From a virus, in the IMG/VR virus record IMGVR_UViG_3300047557_002430, positions 1-64,000 of that record: DNA of 64,000 nt; one strand, 5' to 3'. How positions within the stretch are numbered: the first letter of the stretch is position 1; every line of letters starts with the position of its first letter. Of the stretch, positions 1,372 through 63,792 are shown piece by piece. The position numbers were made by a program, and so were the translations under genes. Under the pieces are notes generated by a model. The model worked only from the letters and a program-made list of their open reading frames with translations. It had not been told where the DNA came from and searched no databases.

Positions 1372-1400
1372 ATTGTGTGCGGCGGCCCCGCGCAAGCGGG
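1372..1400 (-). repeat. Intergenic leader repeat: hairpin plus CACACAAT (copy 1)
   Basis: Read leftward, the hairpin CCCGC-TTGC-GCGGG (1400-1387) is followed by GGCC and CACACAAT. A near copy of the whole arrangement occurs at 5452..5481. Both sit after one small gene's stop and before the next start. There is no U-run, so this is not a standard terminator. A processing site or a promoter/leader element is possible. Confidence 0.45.
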
Positions 1401-1414
1401 ACCACCTCTATGTA

Positions 1415-1561
1415 TTAGATACGATCCATTGGACTATGAAACAGGATTAAGAATCCAATAACTGTAAAAAGGATTGCCAACGGAGGCGCTGTGGAACCAG
1501 CGAAGAACATCATCGTCAGACAAGCGAAGAATGTCCAATTAGTTTTCAGAGTTTTAGTCAT
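1415..1561 (-). CDS. Small two-helix membrane protein (holin-like size)
   Basis: 48 residues starting MTKTLKTNWTFF. The ATG at 1561 lies just after the stop of the upstream L,D-transpeptidase gene, so the two are probably co-translated; longer in-frame starts would lie inside that gene. Two hydrophobic segments (about residues 9-22 and 25-41) predict a membrane hairpin ending HSPMDRI. Size, topology and linkage to peptidoglycan-active genes make a holin or antiholin role possible, but nothing proves it. Confidence 0.5.
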   Translation of the reverse strand: MTKTLKTNWTFFACLTMMFFAGSTAPPLAILFTVIGFLILFHSPMDRI

Positions 1562-1563
1562 GG

Positions 1564-2307
1564 CTAGGACTTGACGGTAAGTCTTTGAATGTTGAAGTGT
1601 TTGATCCATGTGACGAGCTTTACTGTTGCGTCTGCCGATTCCAAACCTATACATCCGGACGTTCCTGATTCGCCATTAGTTTTACCCCACGAAGGATCTT
1701 GGTGAAGGCCAAGCGCTGATCTGTTTGTATTAAACAGAGGCGTAATCGGAACCCAATAACCGCGACCCAGTTCTGGATCTTCGAACGGCGCCGTGGCAAT
1801 CCCCCCACGATCTATTGAGTATGTGCCTGTAGGTAAAGGAGATTTGTTGCCCGCGATATTACGGTTCGCGGTTTGCTTAGATGCCCGGCCAGTAAGTGCA
1901 GGCAAGGACTCTAAGACTTGGCCTTCCTTAGTTACAAGCTCTAGAACCCAGATGGGATCGTTTGTCTTAGGTACAAGTTTGTCTGTGCGCCTCAGTACAA
2001 GCTGCGCCGATGGAGTTGAGCTATAGCCAGGAGGCTTGAATCCAGGTTTATACATAATTTCCGGGCGCGCAGAGCCTGGCAGCGGAGGAAATCCTGGCTC
2101 TGTACTTGCATCCAGCGGCAGAGAACCTTGAGGCGCAGTTCCATTTAATTCCTGTTTGGTTTGTTGTAAAAGTTGTGCGTACATGATGTCTTGCATGTGC
2201 GCATCGCGTTGATTGTGATGTGCAATAAGATTGCCTGCAGCAGTTACAGCTATAGCCGTAACACTGCCTGCAGCAAGAGATAAAGCTGCAATCATTGGGA
2301 GTTTCAT
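1564..2307 (-). CDS. L,D-transpeptidase (YkuD-like) with N-terminal membrane segment
   Basis: 247 residues. An N-terminal hydrophobic segment (about 4-25) is a signal anchor, followed by a Pro-rich linker (about 55-100) and a C-terminal YkuD-type domain. The signature is visible as HQDPSWGK (His near 202) and SGTSGCIGL (Cys near 219), matching the HxxxxxxxS(H/T)GC(I/V) active site. Such enzymes make or cut 3-3 peptidoglycan cross-links, or attach proteins, in the periplasm. It lies with RlpA-like and SH3 proteins, suggesting control of the host wall during infection or lysis. Family assignment is fairly sure; the in vivo role is inferred. Confidence 0.8.
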   Translation of the reverse strand: MKLPMIAALSLAAGSVTAIAVTAAGNLIAHHNQRDAHMQDIMYAQLLQQTKQELNGTAPQGSLPLDASTEPGFPPLPGSARPEIMYKPGFKPPGYSSTPSAQLVLRRTDKLVPKTNDPIWVLELVTKEGQVLESLPALTGRASKQTANRNIAGNKSPLPTGTYSIDRGGIATAPFEDPELGRGYWVPITPLFNTNRSALGLHQDPSWGKTNGESGTSGCIGLESADATVKLVTWIKHFNIQRLTVKS

Positions 2308-2310
2308 GAT

Positions 2311-2766
2311 TTACATGTTGCCGGGGCCTGCTGACCCCGACCGATAATACGCTGGCGGTGCCGGAGCATCTAGGTCTCCTGGCCCACGTGGCGGTGGCGG
2401 TGGGGATGCTGGCGCAGGCTGAGGGGCAGGGGCTGGCTGAGGGGTCGGAGCGACATAGGTTTGCTGAGGTTTCGGCTCTACATATGTAGGTTCCGATTGT
2501 TGTTGTGATTGTTGTGTTTGTTGCTGAGATTGCGTAGTTTGCACGGTAGACGTACCACCGGACAAGGGAGGTTGTCGCCCTTCTTTTACAGCTTTCTGAT
2601 ACTCTTGCCGCGAACGTTGTTGCGGCGTGGGTTCCATCTTTGCTGCAGGATCTGGGCCGTTGTTGGGTAGGAATCCTCCCACGATCATTTGCAGGATGTA
2701 TAAAACAAGAGAGGCCCCGATAAATGCAACGGAGCCTACGAACACTAAAAATAATTTGTGTTTCAT
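2311..2766 (-). CDS. Membrane-anchored Pro/Gln-rich periplasmic protein (spanin-like architecture)
   Basis: 151 residues. One N-terminal transmembrane segment (about 5-30) is followed by a low-complexity periplasmic tail: charged (about 40-65), a Gln-rich stretch with QSQQQTQQSQQQS (about 75-90), then a proline-rich part with PAPAPQPAPASPPPPPRGP. No enzymatic motif. A single anchor plus a stiff Pro-rich tail is reminiscent of spanins or TonB-like spacers that cross the periplasm. It lies 3 bases upstream of the L,D-transpeptidase gene. Function is inferred from architecture only. Confidence 0.6.
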   Translation of the reverse strand: MKHKLFLVFVGSVAFIGASLVLYILQMIVGGFLPNNGPDPAAKMEPTPQQRSRQEYQKAVKEGRQPPLSGGTSTVQTTQSQQQTQQSQQQSEPTYVEPKPQQTYVAPTPQPAPAPQPAPASPPPPPRGPGDLDAPAPPAYYRSGSAGPGNM

Positions 2767-2808
2767 TTAGTGAGAGCGCCTATTGGCAAGGAGGAAGTTT
2801 TCTGTGCT

Positions 2809-3078
2809 TTACCTGCATAAGTAATCGGCTCGTGCCCATCCTACAAGACCGTTGTACTCTACGTGATACCAGCGCATTCCATCACCGCCCCAGACCCAAT
2901 TAATGACGCGGATGTATTCGTTGTTTCGAATCGACGCAATGATGTAGTTACTGCGTGAGGGACCGTTTCGTAGATTTACTGAACTGTTGGGATCGTGTGT
3001 GCACGTTGTGGCCCATTGGGCTTGCGCTGGCAAGCAGAATCCCAGCGAAACAAGAAAAACGAATAAAGCTTTCTTCAC
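2809..3078 (-). CDS. Secreted bacterial SH3-domain protein
   Basis: 89 residues from a GTG start. The signal peptide is clear (KKALFVFLVSLGFCLPAQA, cleavage after AQA). The rest is one SH3b-type domain, seen as VNLRNGPS near residues 34-41 and GWARADYLC at the C-terminus. Cys near 26 and 88 could form a disulfide. SH3b domains commonly bind peptidoglycan, which fits the neighbouring envelope genes. Confidence 0.75.
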   Translation of the reverse strand: MKKALFVFLVSLGFCLPAQAQWATTCTHDPNSSVNLRNGPSRSNYIIASIRNNEYIRVINWVWGGDGMRWYHVEYNGLVGWARADYLCR

Positions 3079-3103
3079 AGTTGCGTTAGTTACGTGTTTG
3101 TTG

Positions 3104-3142
3104 GCGCCTGGGAGGCGCAGAAAATTATGATAGGAGCCTCCC
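3104..3142 (-). other. Alternative hairpins between small genes
   Basis: After the stop of the 3143..3487 gene, GGGAGGC (3142-3136) can pair with GCCTCCC (3116-3110). Bases 3104-3109 can instead pair with 3113-3118 in a tighter hairpin, so the two folds compete. No U-run follows. It may be a weak attenuator or an mRNA-stabilising element. Confidence 0.25.
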
Positions 3143-3487
3143 TTATTGCTGGAAGGCAGGTAGCTCTGGCTGCGTGGTTACTTTAACTACTTCGCCACAC
3201 ACCTCTGAAGGATTAAATGCTTTCCACTTATTGAATTCGGAGATCGTTACATTTACACGAACAGCGTGTAGGTTTGTCCAAGTGGCAAAGGGTTTGTGTA
3301 GCTGATACAAACCTCCCCAATCGTGTCCTTCATTGAACACCGCTGCAACGTGTCCATACTCTCCCAAGCAGACAATTAGTCGGCGAGGATTACCATTGGC
3401 ATCGTTAGATGTGCAGATGTGGAGCACGTTGTTAACGCGCCGCACGTTGTTGTCTGCGCTGTAGTGAAGAAAGAACTGAGTGTTCAT
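3143..3487 (-). CDS. Hypothetical protein
   Basis: 114 residues, mixed alpha/beta, with no motif recognised. The start ATG at 3487 overlaps the end of the upstream gene (3484..3732) by four bases, so they are translationally coupled. Segments such as RRLIVCLGEYGHVAAVF suggest a beta-strand core. Confidence 0.55.
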   Translation of the reverse strand: MNTQFFLHYSADNNVRRVNNVLHICTSNDANGNPRRLIVCLGEYGHVAAVFNEGHDWGGLYQLHKPFATWTNLHAVRVNVTISEFNKWKAFNPSEVCGEVVKVTTQPELPAFQQ

Positions 3488-3732
3488 GGCTGGTAGTTGT
3501 CGAGTTTGTTGCGGAGTTGTGCAGACTCTTTAAGTAATTGCTTGCCGTAGGTTAGCTCTACATACAAGCAGAGTTGTTCTGCTGCGTTTAGATGCCTAGG
3601 TTCCCACGGTTCTTCATTGAACACGTCGGCCTGATACTTAATAGCCTCGGACAATAATGCTGGCGGGATAAGATCCAACAGGGCTTCGATGGCTTGAGGT
3701 ACGAACTCATGTACACACTTTGTGTTGATCAT
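3484..3732 (-). CDS. Hypothetical acidic protein
   Basis: 82 residues, predominantly helical and acidic (ALLDLIPPALLSEAIKYQAD). Lies in a four-gene leftward run with stop/start overlaps (3143 to 4171). No family recognised. Confidence 0.5.
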   Translation of the reverse strand: MINTKCVHEFVPQAIEALLDLIPPALLSEAIKYQADVFNEEPWEPRHLNAAEQLCLYVELTYGKQLLKESAQLRNKLDNYQP

Positions 3733-3734
3733 TG

Positions 3735-3917
3735 TTAGAGAGAAGCGCGATAGTCTGCGTGGATGGTGTGGATGAGATCGTTTATCTCATCACATGTAGG
3801 GTCATCGTTCGTTAGGCGATCCATGATCATCTCCGCTAGGGTCTCGGTGTCATAGCGTGAATCACAATCCTGACCTGATTGATACAAGTAACTAACGATG
3901 TCGCTGACCTCAATCAT
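3735..3917 (-). CDS. Hypothetical acidic mini-protein
   Basis: 60 residues, strongly acidic (many Asp) and helical. Overlaps the upstream gene 3914..4171 by an ATGA-type junction. No motif. Could be a small inhibitor or adaptor, but nothing visible supports a specific role. Confidence 0.5.
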   Translation of the reverse strand: MIEVSDIVSYLYQSGQDCDSRYDTETLAEMIMDRLTNDDPTCDEINDLIHTIHADYRASL

Positions 3918-4171
3918 TTGAGCCCTCCGTTGTTAATGAAGTCTTTGCAGTTCGGTACGGTGTCGAAGGTTCCGATGACTACGGTTACTTCGATTACATC
4001 ACCATCTTCTAAATGGATGGGTGTAAACTTGCGCAACTCGTAGCCCTGCTGATACCTACTCTCTGTGATCTCGCCGACAAGATCATCATCGACGTAGATT
4101 AATTCTCTGAACCATACAATGTCACTGTCGTAATAGGTGCGCATGAACCGATAGGCTGGTGTCTCAATCAT
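3914..4171 (-). CDS. Hypothetical protein
   Basis: 85 residues from ATG 4171, preceded by GATC directly before the start. Aromatic and acidic, beta-rich (DIVWFRELIYVDDDLVGEI). Coupled by overlap to the next gene. No recognised family. Confidence 0.5.
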   Translation of the reverse strand: MIETPAYRFMRTYYDSDIVWFRELIYVDDDLVGEITESRYQQGYELRKFTPIHLEDGDVIEVTVVIGTFDTVPNCKDFINNGGLK

Positions 4172-4173
4172 GA

Positions 4174-4434
4174 TCAGTAATACATGCGGCGGTATTCATG
4201 GGCGATAGTCCAGGCGGGATTAACTGCTGCTGCGCCTGTCTCATCAGGTAGGCACGGACGTACATCATCGGCGTATACGTAGCCGAAACCTTTATAGTTT
4301 CCTGTCGCTTGCAGGACATGCTCAAGCGAATCGGAAAGTCCACGCTTGTGCATAGGTGTGAGCCAAGCAGATACAAGCTGCTTGTTTACCCAATCCTTAA
4401 AGTCTTGGACGTTGAGAGTCTTACGTCGGGGCAT
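4174..4434 (-). CDS. Hypothetical protein
   Basis: 86 residues using the ATG at 4434, which is preceded by AACATC as in sister genes; a start at 4503 would overlap the upstream RlpA-like gene by 35 bases. Mixed basic/acidic, with a helical segment (SDSLEHVLQATGN). No motif recognised. Confidence 0.5.
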   Translation of the reverse strand: MPRRKTLNVQDFKDWVNKQLVSAWLTPMHKRGLSDSLEHVLQATGNYKGFGYVYADDVRPCLPDETGAAAVNPAWTIAHEYRRMYY

Positions 4435-4468
4435 GATGTTAATGGGAGTTTGTGTCGCTGTGGTTATA

Positions 4469-4786
4469 TCAGTAGCTGATGTGAACCGTTGCAATACCGT
4501 CAAGCGGTACGCCTAACCTATAGGCAGCACCGGCAGACAAATCAATAGAATTACAATCACAGCGATCTGTAATAGGTACAGTGAGAACACGTCCGTTATG
4601 TCGAACACGCACTTGTGTGCCACATTCCAACCATGGGTGCGCTGCTGATATGCCCCAGTGTTGATACACTTGGCCGCAATATGTCACGCGGGAGTGATAC
4701 CATTCATGGTAAACAGTTGCTGTAACTGGGCGAGCACTGGCTGGACTTGTGAGTAGCAAAGGAAACAATAGGAGCAAACGTTTCAT
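4469..4786 (-). CDS. RlpA-like double-psi beta-barrel secreted protein
   Basis: 105 residues. Signal peptide MKRLLLLFPLLLTSPASA, then a single compact RlpA-type double-psi beta-barrel. The signature is VPITDRCDCNSIDLSAGAA (about 70-88), with the conserved Asp in TDR (about residue 74) and the family's later 'DLS..A...LG....G...V' pattern. RlpA family proteins cleave or bind denuded glycan strands in the periplasm. Extra Cys pairs (near 37, 55, 75 and 77) suggest disulfides. With the L,D-transpeptidase and SH3 proteins it forms an envelope-remodelling cluster. Good family confidence; catalytic activity unproven. Confidence 0.78.
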   Translation of the reverse strand: MKRLLLLFPLLLTSPASARPVTATVYHEWYHSRVTYCGQVYQHWGISAAHPWLECGTQVRVRHNGRVLTVPITDRCDCNSIDLSAGAAYRLGVPLDGIATVHISY

Positions 4787-17006: not shown

Positions 17007-17885
17007 ATGAAAATCTTGTTGTTTGGCGCCTCCGGGCAGTTGGGGCGTTTTCTTCAGCGCGAAAAACCTCGTGACGTCGAGTTAATTACTCCGAGTCGTA
17101 ACGAAGTTAACTTTACCTCAGGTAACTTGCTGTGCGACTTCATTATTAAAGAGAACCCTGATTGGGTTATTAACGCTGCTGCATATACAGATGTTGAGAA
17201 AGCAGAGGAGGAGCGTTTATTTGCAACTGATCTAAACCACGGTGGACCCTCGTGCATTGCGTGGGCTTGTCAGTTTACAGGTTCGAAGCTTTTACATATT
17301 TCAACGGATTACGTTTTCGATGGCACAGCAATTCACCCATATGAGCCATCCGATCCGCCAAATCCGATTAATTACTACGGCTATACAAAATTGCGAGGTG
17401 AGCAGGCAATAGCTGACATCATGTCGCCAAGCTCGTTCTGTATTCTTCGGACGAGTTGGCTATACAGCGCATTCCGCAAAAATTTTTTCGCGTCTGTATT
17501 TAAGAAGCTGTTGTTCGATAAAGATTTCAATGTTGTTAACGATCAATTCGGGCGGCCCACGTCTGCGATTTGCTTGGCCAAAGTTTGTTGGCAGATTGTT
17601 TTGAGAGGCATTACGGGGGTGCATCACTTTGCGGAAGCTCCGTCGATGAGTCGCCACGCTTTCGCGTTGAAGATCCGCTCGATCGCCGAGACCACATGCG
17701 TGGGTGATTCGCTGAGTAGCGTGTTAGCTGTGCCTTCTACAGAGTACAAAACGAGGGCTTTGAGACCACGTTATAGTGTTCTGGCTAACAGCGTATCACT
17801 GGATGAGCTGGGCCTTGGGGATAACGACTGGGAGAAAAACATAGAGACCACTATTTATGACTTTGTGTTTCAGGATCCTTCGTGA
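17007..17885 (+). CDS. rmlD: dTDP-4-dehydrorhamnose reductase
   Basis: 292 residues, an SDR-fold RmlD. NAD(P)-binding GASGQLG (about 7-13), STDYVFDG with catalytic Thr/Asp region, and YYGYTKLRGE giving the YxxxK pair. It reduces dTDP-4-keto-rhamnose to dTDP-L-rhamnose. Overlaps rmlB by 4 bases. Full length and intact. Confidence 0.9.
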   Translation: MKILLFGASGQLGRFLQREKPRDVELITPSRNEVNFTSGNLLCDFIIKENPDWVINAAAYTDVEKAEEERLFATDLNHGGPSCIAWACQFTGSKLLHISTDYVFDGTAIHPYEPSDPPNPINYYGYTKLRGEQAIADIMSPSSFCILRTSWLYSAFRKNFFASVFKKLLFDKDFNVVNDQFGRPTSAICLAKVCWQIVLRGITGVHHFAEAPSMSRHAFALKIRSIAETTCVGDSLSSVLAVPSTEYKTRALRPRYSVLANSVSLDELGLGDNDWEKNIETTIYDFVFQDPS

Positions 17886-18889
17886 ACTATTCATTCTTTG
17901 ACGGAAAGCGTGTTACCGTAACGGGCGGTCTTGGCTTTATCGGGTCTTGTGTTGTTCGCAAGCTCTTAGCTAATACGGACTGCACCTTACGCATCATCGA
18001 CAAGATGGGCGTGGGGAGTAATAAGGATTTCATTCCTCAATCTTTTGGGGACCGCTATACGATCTCACCGATTGACTTAGCGCATACGCAAAAAGTTTTT
18101 AAGGATTTCGATTACTTTCAGCCGGATATTGTTATTCACTTGGCTGCTGAGAGCCACGTTGATCGCTCGATCACTGAGCCAGCAACCTTTGTTGAAAGCA
18201 ATGTCATCGGTACGTTTTCGGTTTTGGAAGCGAGCCGACGTTTATATGAGTCGCTGCCGCCTGATAAGAAAGCCCAGTTCCGTCTGCACCACGTATCGAC
18301 GGACGAGGTTTTTGGCAGTTTGAGCGACGAAGGCGTATTTACAGAACGTTCTCCCTACAGCCCAAACTCTCCTTACTCAGCCACGAAAGCAGCGAGCGAT
18401 CATTTGGTTCGAGCGTGGTATCACACGTACGGCTTGCCCGTCACTATTTCGAACTGCAGTAATAACTTCGGCCCTTGGCAGGCTGACGAAAAGCTGATCC
18501 CCACGGTGATCCGCTCGATCGTACAGGGCAAGCCCGTTCGGTTGTATGGGGATGGTCAGAATGTGCGGGATTGGCTCTATGTGGATGATCACGTTGACGC
18601 TATTTTTAGCTGCATCGAACGGGGTGTTGTAGGCGAAACCTATTGTGTTGGTGCGCGTAATGAGGTATCTAATGTCGATCTTGTGTACAAGATCTGCCAA
18701 CACCTACTCACAACACATTTGAGTAGTGTGCGTATTATCTTTGGCGAAGATCGTCCGGGTCACGACTTTAGGTACGCGATCGACCCAAGTAAGATCGAGA
18801 GCAAGCTCGGGTGGAAGCCCAAGCATAGCTTTGACGAGGCTTTAAAGGAAACCGTACAATGGTATGTCAAATGGTACGCCCAGAACTAA
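17882..18889 (+). CDS. rmlB: dTDP-glucose 4,6-dehydratase
   Basis: 335 residues, extended SDR. NAD-binding TGGLGFIGS (about 14-22), [12 protein letters not shown], the catalytic STDEVFGSL segment, and [10 protein letters not shown] with YxxxK. It converts dTDP-glucose to the 4-keto-6-deoxy sugar, which feeds rhamnose and other deoxysugars. Translationally coupled to rmlD, and overlaps rmlA by 31 bases. Confidence 0.92.
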
Positions 18890-19689
18890 TCAAGGAGTAT
18901 TGCGGCATTATCTTGGCGGGCGGTAACGGAACCCGTCTGCACCCGATTACAAGCGTGGTGTCTAAACAGCTACTGCCTGTTTACGACAAGCCCATGATTT
19001 ACTACCCACTTGCAACATTAATGCAGATGGGTATTCAAGATATTCTCATCATTACAAAACCTCGGGATAGCGCGTTATTCAAGCAGTTGTTGGGAACAGG
19101 TGCTCCGTGGGGCATAAGCCTGACGTACGCGGAACAACCTGAGCCGGAAGGTTTAGCGCAGGCTTTTTTGATTGCTGAGGATTTTATAGCGGACAGACCA
19201 TCGGCTTTGATCCTTGGCGATAACTTATTCCACGGTCCTTTAGATTTCTCGTTTGGGTACTTTTATGGGCAGGAGGGGGCCACGGTGTTTGGCTACCGCG
19301 TCAAGGATCCCCATCGCTACGGAGTTATAGATTTTGATATCGTTGAAAATCGCGTTAAGCGGATCGTCGAAAAACCAAAAGTTCCGCCGAGCAACTACGC
19401 CGTGACCGGCCTGTACTTTTATGACAATACAGTGTGTGAACGCGCCAAGAATCTGGAGAAGTCACCCCGTGGCGAATACGAGATCACAGATTTAAATAAT
19501 ACGTATATTACGGACAGTGTTCTAAACGTTGAGCTATTGGATGAGGGTTACGTCTGGTTAGATACAGGTACGCCCGATTCCCTGCACGAGGCTGCCTCGT
19601 ATGTGCAGACGCTACAGCATCGGCAGGGTATTCGAATCGGGTGCCCTTACACTATTGCGCAGGAAAAGCTCTGGGTTCCGAGAACTTAG
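18859..19689 (+). CDS. rmlA: Glucose-1-phosphate thymidylyltransferase
   Basis: 276 residues. Nucleotidyltransferase signature [16 protein letters not shown] (about 16-31), [16 protein letters not shown], and GDNLFHG with the metal-binding Asp. It makes dTDP-glucose from dTTP and glucose-1-phosphate. The ATG at 18859 has AAGGA nine bases upstream; a second ATG at 18871 is possible. No rmlC follows: the next gene is the convergent FkbM methyltransferase, overlapping by 38 bases. Confidence 0.92.
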
Positions 19690-45427: not shown

Positions 45428-46002
45428 TGACATCAACCCCTGTTGTCTTTCTCTTAAAAAGATCTGGTCTCTCCTCAGACCGTCCTAGCGGCGTTATTCT
45501 GCAGGGAGGCGAGCCTGCGCTTTGTTTTGGTGCTGCAGACCCAGGACTTTACTTTGAAGATTCTGCGGGTTCTGTTCGCAAAATAGGTCCGGCTCATTAC
45601 GGAACGACGGCGCCTAACTCTTCTCCGCAGGGATTAGCGGGAAACTCTACCGGTGAGTTATGGACCGATAGCTCAACTTCAGAGTATTACTTAAAAGTTT
45701 GGACAGGATCAGCGTGGCAGAAAGTAGGGGCTGCGTTTTCCGACTCCGCCACCATAGCTACCTCGGCTGCTACTGCGGGTTCCGCTGTATTAGCGTCTGG
45801 CGCTGTTTTGGCGTCCGGAGCTATTTTGGCCTCCGGAGCAATCCTTGCGTCAGGTGCTATTAAATGCGCAGACATTGGAGTGAGTGGATTACCCGCCCCC
45901 AGCAGCTATGCTTCCGGGTCGCTCTTCTACCAAATACAGCCTTCAGGATCCTTTGGTGCGGGACTGTTTGTTAGGGCCTCAAATACTTGGCTTCAGGCCT
46001 GA
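45427..46002 (+). CDS. Fibre/adhesin protein with LASGAI repeats
   Basis: 191 residues. An N-terminal region with a GELWTDSSTSEYYLKVWTGS module (about 77-96), then short repeats VLASGAILASGAILASGA (about 117-140) and a Gly/Ser-rich C-terminus ending FVRASNTWLQA. The ASG repeats occur in many fibre proteins from 53 kb on. Convergent with the Dps gene, overlapping by 10 bases. Confidence 0.65.
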   Translation: MTSTPVVFLLKRSGLSSDRPSGVILQGGEPALCFGAADPGLYFEDSAGSVRKIGPAHYGTTAPNSSPQGLAGNSTGELWTDSSTSEYYLKVWTGSAWQKVGAAFSDSATIATSAATAGSAVLASGAVLASGAILASGAILASGAIKCADIGVSGLPAPSSYASGSLFYQIQPSGSFGAGLFVRASNTWLQA

Positions 46003-46532
46003 TCGCGCAGCGTGGCCTTTAAAAACCACGCGGCTTTGAACATCATTTTGACAAGATCCGCCATGTAGTTTTCTACATCGGGTGCTTGTGCTTCGCGAGC
46101 GAGAACGCCGGTTTCCTTCGCCATCATGCCTGCGTTCTCTAAATTCTTTACGTAGGTCGTCAACGCCTCGCGGGCGGTGTAAGATTTAACATGTTTGAAA
46201 CCTTTGTACGCTCCTGTTAAACCTCGTGCACACATAGGCATGAGGTAATCCATGGAGCGAACAAACTCAGCAACACTGTCGAATTGATCGATGTGATCTT
46301 CGTACTGTTGTTTTAAAAACTCGTGAATAGGTAAAAACAGAGGGCCTTCAATATTTAAGTGAATGAGGTGAGCTTGTAAGTACAGTTGATTTAAATAAGA
46401 CCCAACGACTACAAGTTGATCGATAAGTTCGCCAACTGTAGCCGTCGGTTTTTGCTCCGGCGCCTCGGACTGCATAAATCCCCCAGCGTGGGGCATCTCT
46501 GCGGGTGTTTCGAAAGCGCCGGAGAGAGTCAT
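45993..46532 (-). CDS. Dps/ferritin-like protein
   Basis: 179 residues. After a roughly 30-residue extension comes a Dps four-helix fold: AHLIHLNIEGPLFLPIHEFL (about 54-73) and DHIDQFDSVAEFVRSMDYL (about 79-97). His58, His70, Asp85 and Glu89 reproduce the spacing (12, 15, 4) of the Dps ferroxidase ligands, although the usual Asp four residues after the second His is Lys74. Dps cages bind iron or DNA and quench peroxide. Encoded with an HTH gene two bases upstream. Confidence 0.8.
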   Translation of the reverse strand: MTLSGAFETPAEMPHAGGFMQSEAPEQKPTATVGELIDQLVVVGSYLNQLYLQAHLIHLNIEGPLFLPIHEFLKQQYEDHIDQFDSVAEFVRSMDYLMPMCARGLTGAYKGFKHVKSYTAREALTTYVKNLENAGMMAKETGVLAREAQAPDVENYMADLVKMMFKAAWFLKATLRDQA

Positions 46533-47572: not shown

Positions 47573-48907
47573 ATGGCTACGGATTACAGAGAGCTAGCTC
47601 GGCAAAAAGCTGCTAAATATGGGTTAATACCCGAGGTTTTTGAGCGGCAAATACAAGCTGAATCTGGGTTTAGCCCTGATGTAATTTCGGGTCAAAGGAA
47701 GTCTAGTGCCGGTGCTTTAGGTATTGCCCAAATAATGCCTTCCACGGCGGCTTCGTGGGGAGTTAATCCCTTAGATCCTGTCGCAGCCTTAGATGCGGCA
47801 GCCAAAAATATGGCCGCATATGTTAAGACATTCGGAGGAGTGGGAACAACAGATCCTGTAAAAGTTCGTACAGCGTATGAAAAAGCTTTACAGGCATATA
47901 ACGCTGGGCCAGGCAGCGTAGGTAAATATCTGCCAGCGGAGACTAAAAGCTACATCAGCAAAATTGTAGGCCCCGACAAGTTCAGCTTTACCGAAGCTGT
48001 TCAACGCGGTGTGGGCGCTACTGTTAGTTCTCCAGACACTGCACCCGCTCCAACTCCTGTTGAGCCTATTAAGTTACCTCGGTTTGATTTCAAGGGAGCA
48101 TTAACCGATATCGTCTCAAGTTTTGCTCAGAAAGTTAACGCACCGTCAGAAAGCTCGAATGCTTTTAAATATTTAGAGCTAGCTAATGCTCTTGATCAAT
48201 CTGGTAATCCGGAAAGTTCCGCTCTCGCTGAGGCGTATAGGGCAAAAGCTTTAGAAGCTTCTATGCAACCTATATCAAAAAATAGACCAGAACCTACAGA
48301 TTTGTTAGGTCAGATTTTGCAAGCAAAAGTAAAAGAATCGCAGCATAACGCTGAGGCCGCAGCATTAGAACAACAGATAAATAAATCCATAGGAGCTACT
48401 CAGACTGCAACTACGGCTCCGACACAATTAACTCCGGGTAAAGGATTAGCTCTAAAAGGGGTGACGATAACCTCCCCCGTAGATACTTCAGGTGAACCTG
48501 GGTTTGACTTTGTTATTCCCGGCGGACGTGGTGCCACTTTTACAACTCCGTTTAAAGCTCAGGTTCTTAAAGTTGTTAATGATCCTTGGGAAACCAATTT
48601 AGAGAAAGGGCCTGGTCGTAGGGGTTACGGAAACTACGTTGATGTACGAGGGGTTGACCCCATAACAGGGCGTCAATTTGATGTTCGGTTAGCGCATTTT
48701 GATAAACTGAACCCAGCCTTAAAGCCCGGTGCCGTAATCGAAGCGGGTACACCTATTGGTACTCAGGGAAGGTCAGGTTCTACAACCGGAGCGCACGTAT
48801 CCGCCGATTTCTACGACCCAGGAAAAAACACAGCGAGTGCAGATATACTTAAATTACGTGACAGAATTCGCGATAGACTGGCTAAAGGACTTCCAGTTTT
48901 CGAGTAA
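47573..48907 (+). CDS. Virion lysozyme: SLT transglycosylase plus degenerate M23-like domain
   Basis: 444 residues. N-terminal SLT domain: RQIQAESGFSPDVIS with catalytic Glu near 30, SSAGALGIAQIMPSTA and YNAGPGSV. The Ala/Gln-rich middle is a spacer. The C-terminal LytM/M23-like domain (about 300-430) has VRLAHFDKL, GTPIGTQGRSGST and TGAHVSADFYD, but the HxxxD is lost (PGFDFVIPGG) and HxH reads HVS, so zinc binding is doubtful. Probably a virion protein that opens the wall during DNA entry. TAATG overlap with the next gene. Confidence 0.85.
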   Translation: MATDYRELARQKAAKYGLIPEVFERQIQAESGFSPDVISGQRKSSAGALGIAQIMPSTAASWGVNPLDPVAALDAAAKNMAAYVKTFGGVGTTDPVKVRTAYEKALQAYNAGPGSVGKYLPAETKSYISKIVGPDKFSFTEAVQRGVGATVSSPDTAPAPTPVEPIKLPRFDFKGALTDIVSSFAQKVNAPSESSNAFKYLELANALDQSGNPESSALAEAYRAKALEASMQPISKNRPEPTDLLGQILQAKVKESQHNAEAAALEQQINKSIGATQTATTAPTQLTPGKGLALKGVTITSPVDTSGEPGFDFVIPGGRGATFTTPFKAQVLKVVNDPWETNLEKGPGRRGYGNYVDVRGVDPITGRQFDVRLAHFDKLNPALKPGAVIEAGTPIGTQGRSGSTTGAHVSADFYDPGKNTASADILKLRDRIRDRLAKGLPVFE

Positions 48908-63420: not shown

Positions 63421-63792
63421 TTGGCGTTGGATTGTCGGCATTACGTTGCAGAGCTGTACAACGCTGATTCGGCAAAACTAAACGACGAGAGTTTAATCCG
63501 AGAGTTTCTTATTTGCGCTGCTGAGCAGGCTAACTCTTCGTTGATTGACGTAAAAACTCATTCATTTTCACCTCAGGGTATAACTGGGTTTGCTCTGCTG
63601 GCCGAGTCTCATATTTCTATTCACACTTGGCCCGAGCATAACTTTGCAGCCGTGGATGCCTTTACGTGCGGAGAACACACAGATCCTGAAAAAGCCTGTT
63701 TATACTTAGCTTTAATGCTGGATGCTAAAGGACACTCAGTTACATACGTTGAGCGTATGATACCTGAATTCTTAAGTAAATCTAATGCTTAA
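63421..63792 (+). CDS. speD: S-adenosylmethionine decarboxylase proenzyme
   Basis: 123 residues from TTG 63421. AESHISIHTWPEHNFAAVDA: Glu62-Ser63 is the autocleavage site that makes the pyruvoyl group. His68 and Cys83 (FTCGEHTD) match the processing/catalytic residues of the prokaryotic class 1B enzyme. Decarboxylated SAM is the aminopropyl donor for spermidine. speD is known as an auxiliary gene of marine cyanophages. Full length. Own promoter; no speE seen. Confidence 0.93.
   Translation: MALDCRHYVAELYNADSAKLNDESLIREFLICAAEQANSSLIDVKTHSFSPQGITGFALLAESHISIHTWPEHNFAAVDAFTCGEHTDPEKACLYLALMLDAKGHSVTYVERMIPEFLSKSNA

Follow-up and report, generated by a model that had tools for sequence, protein, structure and literature searches.

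Genes comparable with those considered here occur in several phage and bacterial systems. In T1-like phages (Drexlerviridae), a standalone SH3 gene adjoins the lysis cassette, where it lies beside genes for a pinholin, a signal-arrest-release (SAR) endolysin and a u-spanin and is assigned to DUF7244 (PMC13164509). The type VI secretion effector Tlde1a, an L,D-transpeptidase (LDT)/carboxypeptidase, uses an LDT fold to edit peptide stems and not to build wall; its H129A mutant keeps D-amino-acid exchange, gives half the carboxypeptidase products and is strongly reduced in cross-linking (PMC9638812). The lysozymes of cyanophage S-2L and of Nodularia phages, annotated as 'lysozyme' or 'endolysin', consist, by our sequence comparison, of a GH24 domain followed by a C-terminal YkuD-fold domain. 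Here we describe a cassette of three genes, encoding an SH3 protein, a proline-rich (Pro-rich) anchored protein and an LDT-like enzyme, at positions 1564-3078 (minus strand) of a 64-kb stretch of viral DNA (the window), which is the first part of the 87,088-bp IMG/VR record IMGVR_UViG_3300047557_002430. The cassette is real and conserved, and judging from its genes it is apparently an undescribed wall-active unit of uncultured cyanophages resembling Synechococcus phage S-EIV1, for which we propose a function. Open-licence papers on LDTs encoded by cyanophages and other phages yielded nothing describing such an SH3, Pro-rich and LDT cassette.

The record carries an exact 127-bp repeat at its termini (1-127 and 86962-87088) and so probably represents a complete, circular genome assembly. 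The nearest named virus is the freshwater phage S-EIV1 (KJ410740; capsid protein 69%, terminase 52%), which also has the primase, thymidylate synthase and DNA polymerase in common with the window virus, and this kinship makes a picocyanobacterium the probable host. Unlike the window virus, S-EIV1 lacks the SH3, Pro-rich and LDT genes as well as a neighboring gene for an RlpA-like protein.

The original prediction placed five envelope-type proteins in a cluster at 1415-4786. All five were found there, all on the minus strand, and the Pfam domain calls made among them (YkuD, SH3_3 and DPBB_1) each exceed the curated cut-off. As a conserved unit, the cluster narrows to three genes:

2809-3078, minus strand: secreted SH3_3 protein of 89 aa, cassette gene 1, identified by Pfam SH3_3
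2311-2766, minus strand: Pro/Gln-rich anchored protein of 151 aa, cassette gene 2, identified by conserved gene order and tail motif
1564-2307, minus strand: membrane-anchored YkuD-fold LDT-like enzyme of 247 aa, cassette gene 3, identified by Pfam YkuD

We collected further loci by searching viral contigs with LDT and SH3 profiles and scored gene order wherever the DNA sufficed. The order SH3, Pro-rich anchor, LDT was kept in 25 of 25 such loci, representing 19 distinct viruses once near-identical records are removed. The gap between the Pro-rich gene and the LDT is mostly 0-8 nt, and one or two extra small genes lie between the SH3 and Pro-rich genes in loci L042-L045, leaving the order unchanged; the genes flanking the cassette otherwise vary between loci. 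With ratios of nonsynonymous to synonymous substitution rates (dN/dS) of 0.02-0.26, all three genes are, on sequence evidence, under purifying selection. Presence and absence were counted over related records and hence not over independent events: SH3 and LDT were both present in nine and both absent in nine of 18 records, and among records selected by capsid gene only, LDT was found in 4 of 13, each time together with SH3, which was absent from all eight LDT-negative ones checked. When a cellular source was sought, no LDT relative was found in the searched genome contigs or plasmids, and the SH3 search returned only generic matches (25-48%) in unrelated bacteria. In L005, the gene next after the cassette is PcfJ-like (L005:6741-8534); L006 and L008 have similar genes, but the window virus does not.

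The SH3 gene, conserved in 27 loci, has a GTG start and encodes a protein with a cleavable leader ending in AQA and two conserved cysteines. It matches Pfam SH3_3 across 2809-3078 (E=2e-9, 38 bits against a cut-off of 27), and a hydrophobic leader followed by a conserved AQ, as expected of an export signal, recurs among the SH3 proteins. Among solved structures, its profile is nearest to the wall-binding SH3 domains of the autolytic lysozyme 4krt, consistent with a protein that would be exported and bind peptidoglycan. Like its T1-like counterpart, it is small and free-standing, and it is accessory yet fixed in its locus in a phage of a Gram-negative-type host; unlike that counterpart, it is a secreted SH3_3 protein beside a Pro-rich anchor and an LDT, far from the endolysin.

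The Pro/Gln-rich protein has an N-terminal transmembrane anchor, a low-complexity periplasmic arm and a tail in which two GPG[ND] motifs occur and whose last residues are GPGNM; both motifs and a GPGN[ML] end are present in all 25 loci. There was no convincing Pfam match for this protein or for the small membrane protein that follows the LDT. We considered it as a spanin and rejected this, since there is no lipobox, no cysteine in the window protein and a cysteine in only 13 of 25 homologues. A C-terminal box like those of Lpp and OutB was likewise rejected, the tail being GPGN[ML] with no terminal lysine. The protein would most simply serve as an inner-membrane anchor bearing a long flexible periplasmic arm.

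The third protein combines an N-terminal membrane anchor with a YkuD-fold domain (PF03734, 1564-2307; E=6e-7, 30.5 bits against a cut-off of 23.4), and its relatives also score above the cut-off. His202 and Cys219 are invariant in 20 aligned sequences, whereas the canonical (S/T)HGC motif reads TSGC in 25 of 25 loci, with the second motif histidine replaced by serine. By sequence, this is a member of the YkuD fold family and not a canonical cross-linking LDT, with an activity that is so far predicted. Because the second motif histidine is replaced, as in the Tlde1a H129A mutant, editing is favored over cross-linking, and by this analogy the protein most likely edits stem peptides, as a carboxypeptidase or by exchange, while tethered to the membrane. 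The window LDT in its natural state resembles that mutant, but the likeness is one of function and not of membership: Pfam reports YkuD alone with no match to the Tlde1 domain (PF10908), and no secretion-system or immunity gene accompanies it. YkuD enzymes usually cross-link, and the Pfam match could be taken to mean that 3-3 cross-links hold the infected cell together up to lysis; against such strengthening stand the TSGC motif in every locus and the far lower cross-linking of the corresponding Tlde1a mutant (PMC9638812), and we regard it as the least probable of the explanations considered here. The original prediction that the wall is strengthened or edited therefore survives in its second half: editing fits the conserved cassette, the intact cysteine and histidine and the position on the replication side of the genome, while strengthening is less likely with the second histidine replaced.

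The closest relatives of this enzyme lie in other cyanophages. A profile search against the sequences of solved structures returned nothing relevant, and tblastn of the LDT against named phages gave no direct match at E 0.01; with E up to 10, eight of ten weak matches were cyanophages, which led us to the lysozyme fusion. Aligned by hhalign, the C-terminal domain of these lysozymes matches the cassette LDT with 97.6% probability (E=4e-12, 137 columns), against 1.8% for a control using the lysozyme half. Among viral models, Foldseek matched the LDT to the endolysin of a Nodularia phage (E=5e-9) and also to a GH19 protein from a Synechococcus phage and to a tail lysozyme. By sequence comparison, the cassette LDT and the C-terminal domain of the S-2L and Nodularia GH24 lysozymes are homologues, so other cyanophages appear to employ this domain in attacking the wall. 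Both share the active-site motif H-x-D...GT[SA]GC[IV]G, and the second motif histidine is absent from the lysozyme-fused domains (Ala) as it is from those of S-H34 (Gln) and Mic1 (Ala). In S-2L and the Nodularia phages, however, the domain is fused to a muramidase, whereas the window LDT is free-standing, membrane-anchored and part of a three-gene cassette on the strand opposite the muramidase. The C-terminal YkuD-fold domain of the S-2L and Nodularia lysozymes (L166:1745-2887 and L168:1742-2995) is unannotated and falls below the Pfam cut-off.

The same fusion could be read as pointing to a wall-binding domain, and the LDT fold might then bind stems without catalysis, with the cassette fastening some phage structure or protein to the wall. 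The SH3 domain and the Pro-rich arm also suggest binding, but the catalytic histidine and cysteine are invariant, and we consider such a scaffold or tether very improbable.

A classical endolysin was sought elsewhere in the genome and was found beyond the window, at record positions 65289-66533 (plus strand). It is a GH24 lysozyme (Pfam E=2e-44; PHROG endolysin E=1e-71) with a C-terminal C39/AvrRpt2-like cysteine peptidase domain (L003:5289-6533). GH24 lysozymes are present in 20 of 23 related records, whether or not they carry the cassette, and S-EIV1 has one with no cassette. We therefore rejected the cassette as a replacement lysis system, and the originally suggested unusual lysis system, as the main or sole one, does not stand. 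The description of 1415-4786 as something other than a textbook holin-endolysin-spanin cassette holds, there being no muralytic endolysin in the cluster. As for a complete classical lysis cassette elsewhere, the endolysin is in place, while a holin and a spanin were not identified with confidence. Two small membrane proteins encoded next to the endolysin gene (minus strand, record 64225-64401 and 64490-64759) are holin or spanin candidates, the second shared with S-EIV1. The GH24 lysozymes of S-EIV1 and of the L005, L006 and L008 group are shorter and lack the C39-like domain.

The LDT lies on the DNA polymerase strand in 10 of 10 records, 7-14 kb upstream of the polymerase, and on the strand opposite the capsid gene in 13 of 13 and opposite the lysozyme gene in 12 of 12. 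This orientation puts the cassette outside the lysis operon, and we predict that it is expressed with the replication arm.

The cassette could still act at the end of infection as an auxiliary to lysis, the LDT cutting stem peptides in aid of the GH24 endolysin, the SH3 protein binding the wall as a separate subunit and the Pro-rich protein forming a bridge in the manner of a spanin. That S-2L and Nodularia phages join the YkuD domain to a GH24 lysozyme argues for this role, as does the standalone SH3 gene in the T1-like lysis module (PMC13164509). However, the cassette sits in the replication arm, opposite the lysozyme strand in all 12 records; the Pro-rich protein has no spanin lipobox; and many relatives lyse without the cassette. 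We consider this role unlikely, although it is the strongest of the alternatives.

An accessory, lineage-restricted cassette in the replication arm might instead serve superinfection exclusion, if an edited wall is harder to cut or to cross for the wall enzymes that other phages carry in their virions. Phages of this kind carry such enzymes: the window virus itself encodes, in its structural arm, a protein (47573-48907, plus strand) that contains an SLT transglycosylase domain and matches M23 peptidase below the cut-off, by its domains probably a virion-associated wall enzyme. On the other hand, the cassette has no convincing match to defence families, the single hit being a weak, composition-like match of the Pro-rich protein to PD-T4-6, and exclusion as the main role seems distinctly improbable, more so than a part in lysis.

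The explanation we prefer, to which we give about an even chance, is that the cassette is a dedicated periplasmic peptidoglycan editor used alongside an ordinary GH24 endolysin. It would be made before lysis, from the replication-side arm, as strand and position suggest. The conserved GPGN tail of the Pro-rich protein may dock a partner or the wall, and the tethered LDT would act on tetrapeptide stems through Cys219 and His202, most likely removing the terminal residue by hydrolysis (L,D-carboxypeptidase) or replacing it (D-amino-acid exchange) and not forming 3-3 cross-links. The wall would thereby be loosened or re-marked from inside and so pre-conditioned for the endolysin, and it might also become a poorer substrate for superinfecting phages. 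A more ambitious version, which we offer tentatively and think unlikely to hold in full, is a three-component inner-membrane machine that chemically re-marks the host's peptidoglycan stems during replication, through D-amino-acid exchange or trimming, shields the cell from superinfection and primes lysis, its enzyme being a free-standing form of the endolysin-type YkuD domain.

Several points weigh against wall editing by the cassette. The structure model of the LDT is only moderately confident (mean predicted local distance difference test score, pLDDT, 64), and its best Foldseek match among solved structures, V. cholerae LdtA, is weak (E=0.01). The YkuD domain of the lysozymes could serve for binding and not for catalysis. 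Docking by the Pro-rich tail is a guess, the timing of expression is read from genome architecture only, through the strand argument, and the cassette is known here from its genes.

The remaining two envelope-type genes, and a possible RNA feature, lie on either side of the cassette:

4469-4786, minus strand: secreted RlpA-like DPBB protein of 105 aa, identified by DPBB_1, a neighborhood accessory outside the cassette
1415-1561, minus strand: small membrane protein of 48 aa with two hydrophobic stretches, called from sequence, doubtful as a cassette member
1380-1406, minus strand: stable GC-rich hairpin (z-score -4.06, no T-run), just past the small membrane gene

Both genes were rejected as cassette members, since each varies independently. 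The proposed closeness of the five genes holds in that they share a neighborhood, but RlpA stands apart: between it and SH3 lie five small genes (3143-4503) that show no envelope features. RlpA was found in 8 of 23 related records, of which three have no LDT. In the window, as in the five records holding both genes, it is encoded on the LDT strand, 2-6 kb upstream of the LDT; it thus shares the neighborhood of the cassette but is a separate, patchy accessory. The protein has the DPBB fold (DPBB_1, E=1e-16 at 4469-4786) and scores 40.8 bits, below the curated NCBI cut-off of 82 for RlpA. Because glutamine replaces the glutamate of the GE motif (GQ instead of GE, with Gln where PA4485 has Glu), its catalysis is doubtful. 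RlpA-like proteins are, by sequence, common in cyanophages: those of S-CBS4, S-CRM01, S-CBP1/3/4 and S-SRP01 belong to the same DPBB family, at 31-40% identity, whereas the window protein is a bare domain with the altered motif.

The small membrane gene is absent from relatives. Its start is most likely the ATG at 1561, which follows the LDT stop codon immediately, so that the product would have 48 aa and not the 79 of the open reading frame. The hairpin at 1380-1406 is possibly a transcript end or processing point; a hairpin upstream of SH3 was not significant, and a promoter scan gave nothing beyond chance expectation.

Other genes were noted in passing. A protein at 45993-46532 (minus strand) has 48% identity to an annotated DNA-binding ferritin-like protein of S-EIV1. 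Judged by eye, 63421-63792 (plus strand) resembles S-adenosylmethionine decarboxylase, which is also annotated in S-EIV1; three neighboring genes at 17007-19689 (plus strand) resemble dTDP-rhamnose synthesis enzymes, possibly related to surface glycans; and genes at record 81554-84460 (minus strand), close to the replication genes, resemble a VWA-domain protein and a MoxR-type AAA ATPase.

The phage wall enzymes known so far are mostly endolysins or virion lysins. The viruses that bear this cassette probably remodel the host wall during infection in addition to final lysis, and the link to the YkuD domains of S-2L and the Nodularia phages makes it directly testable whether such a domain without the second histidine hydrolyzes, exchanges or cross-links. 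A conserved, co-inherited cassette away from the lysis genes suggests that wall editing is a separate step of infection in some cyanophages.

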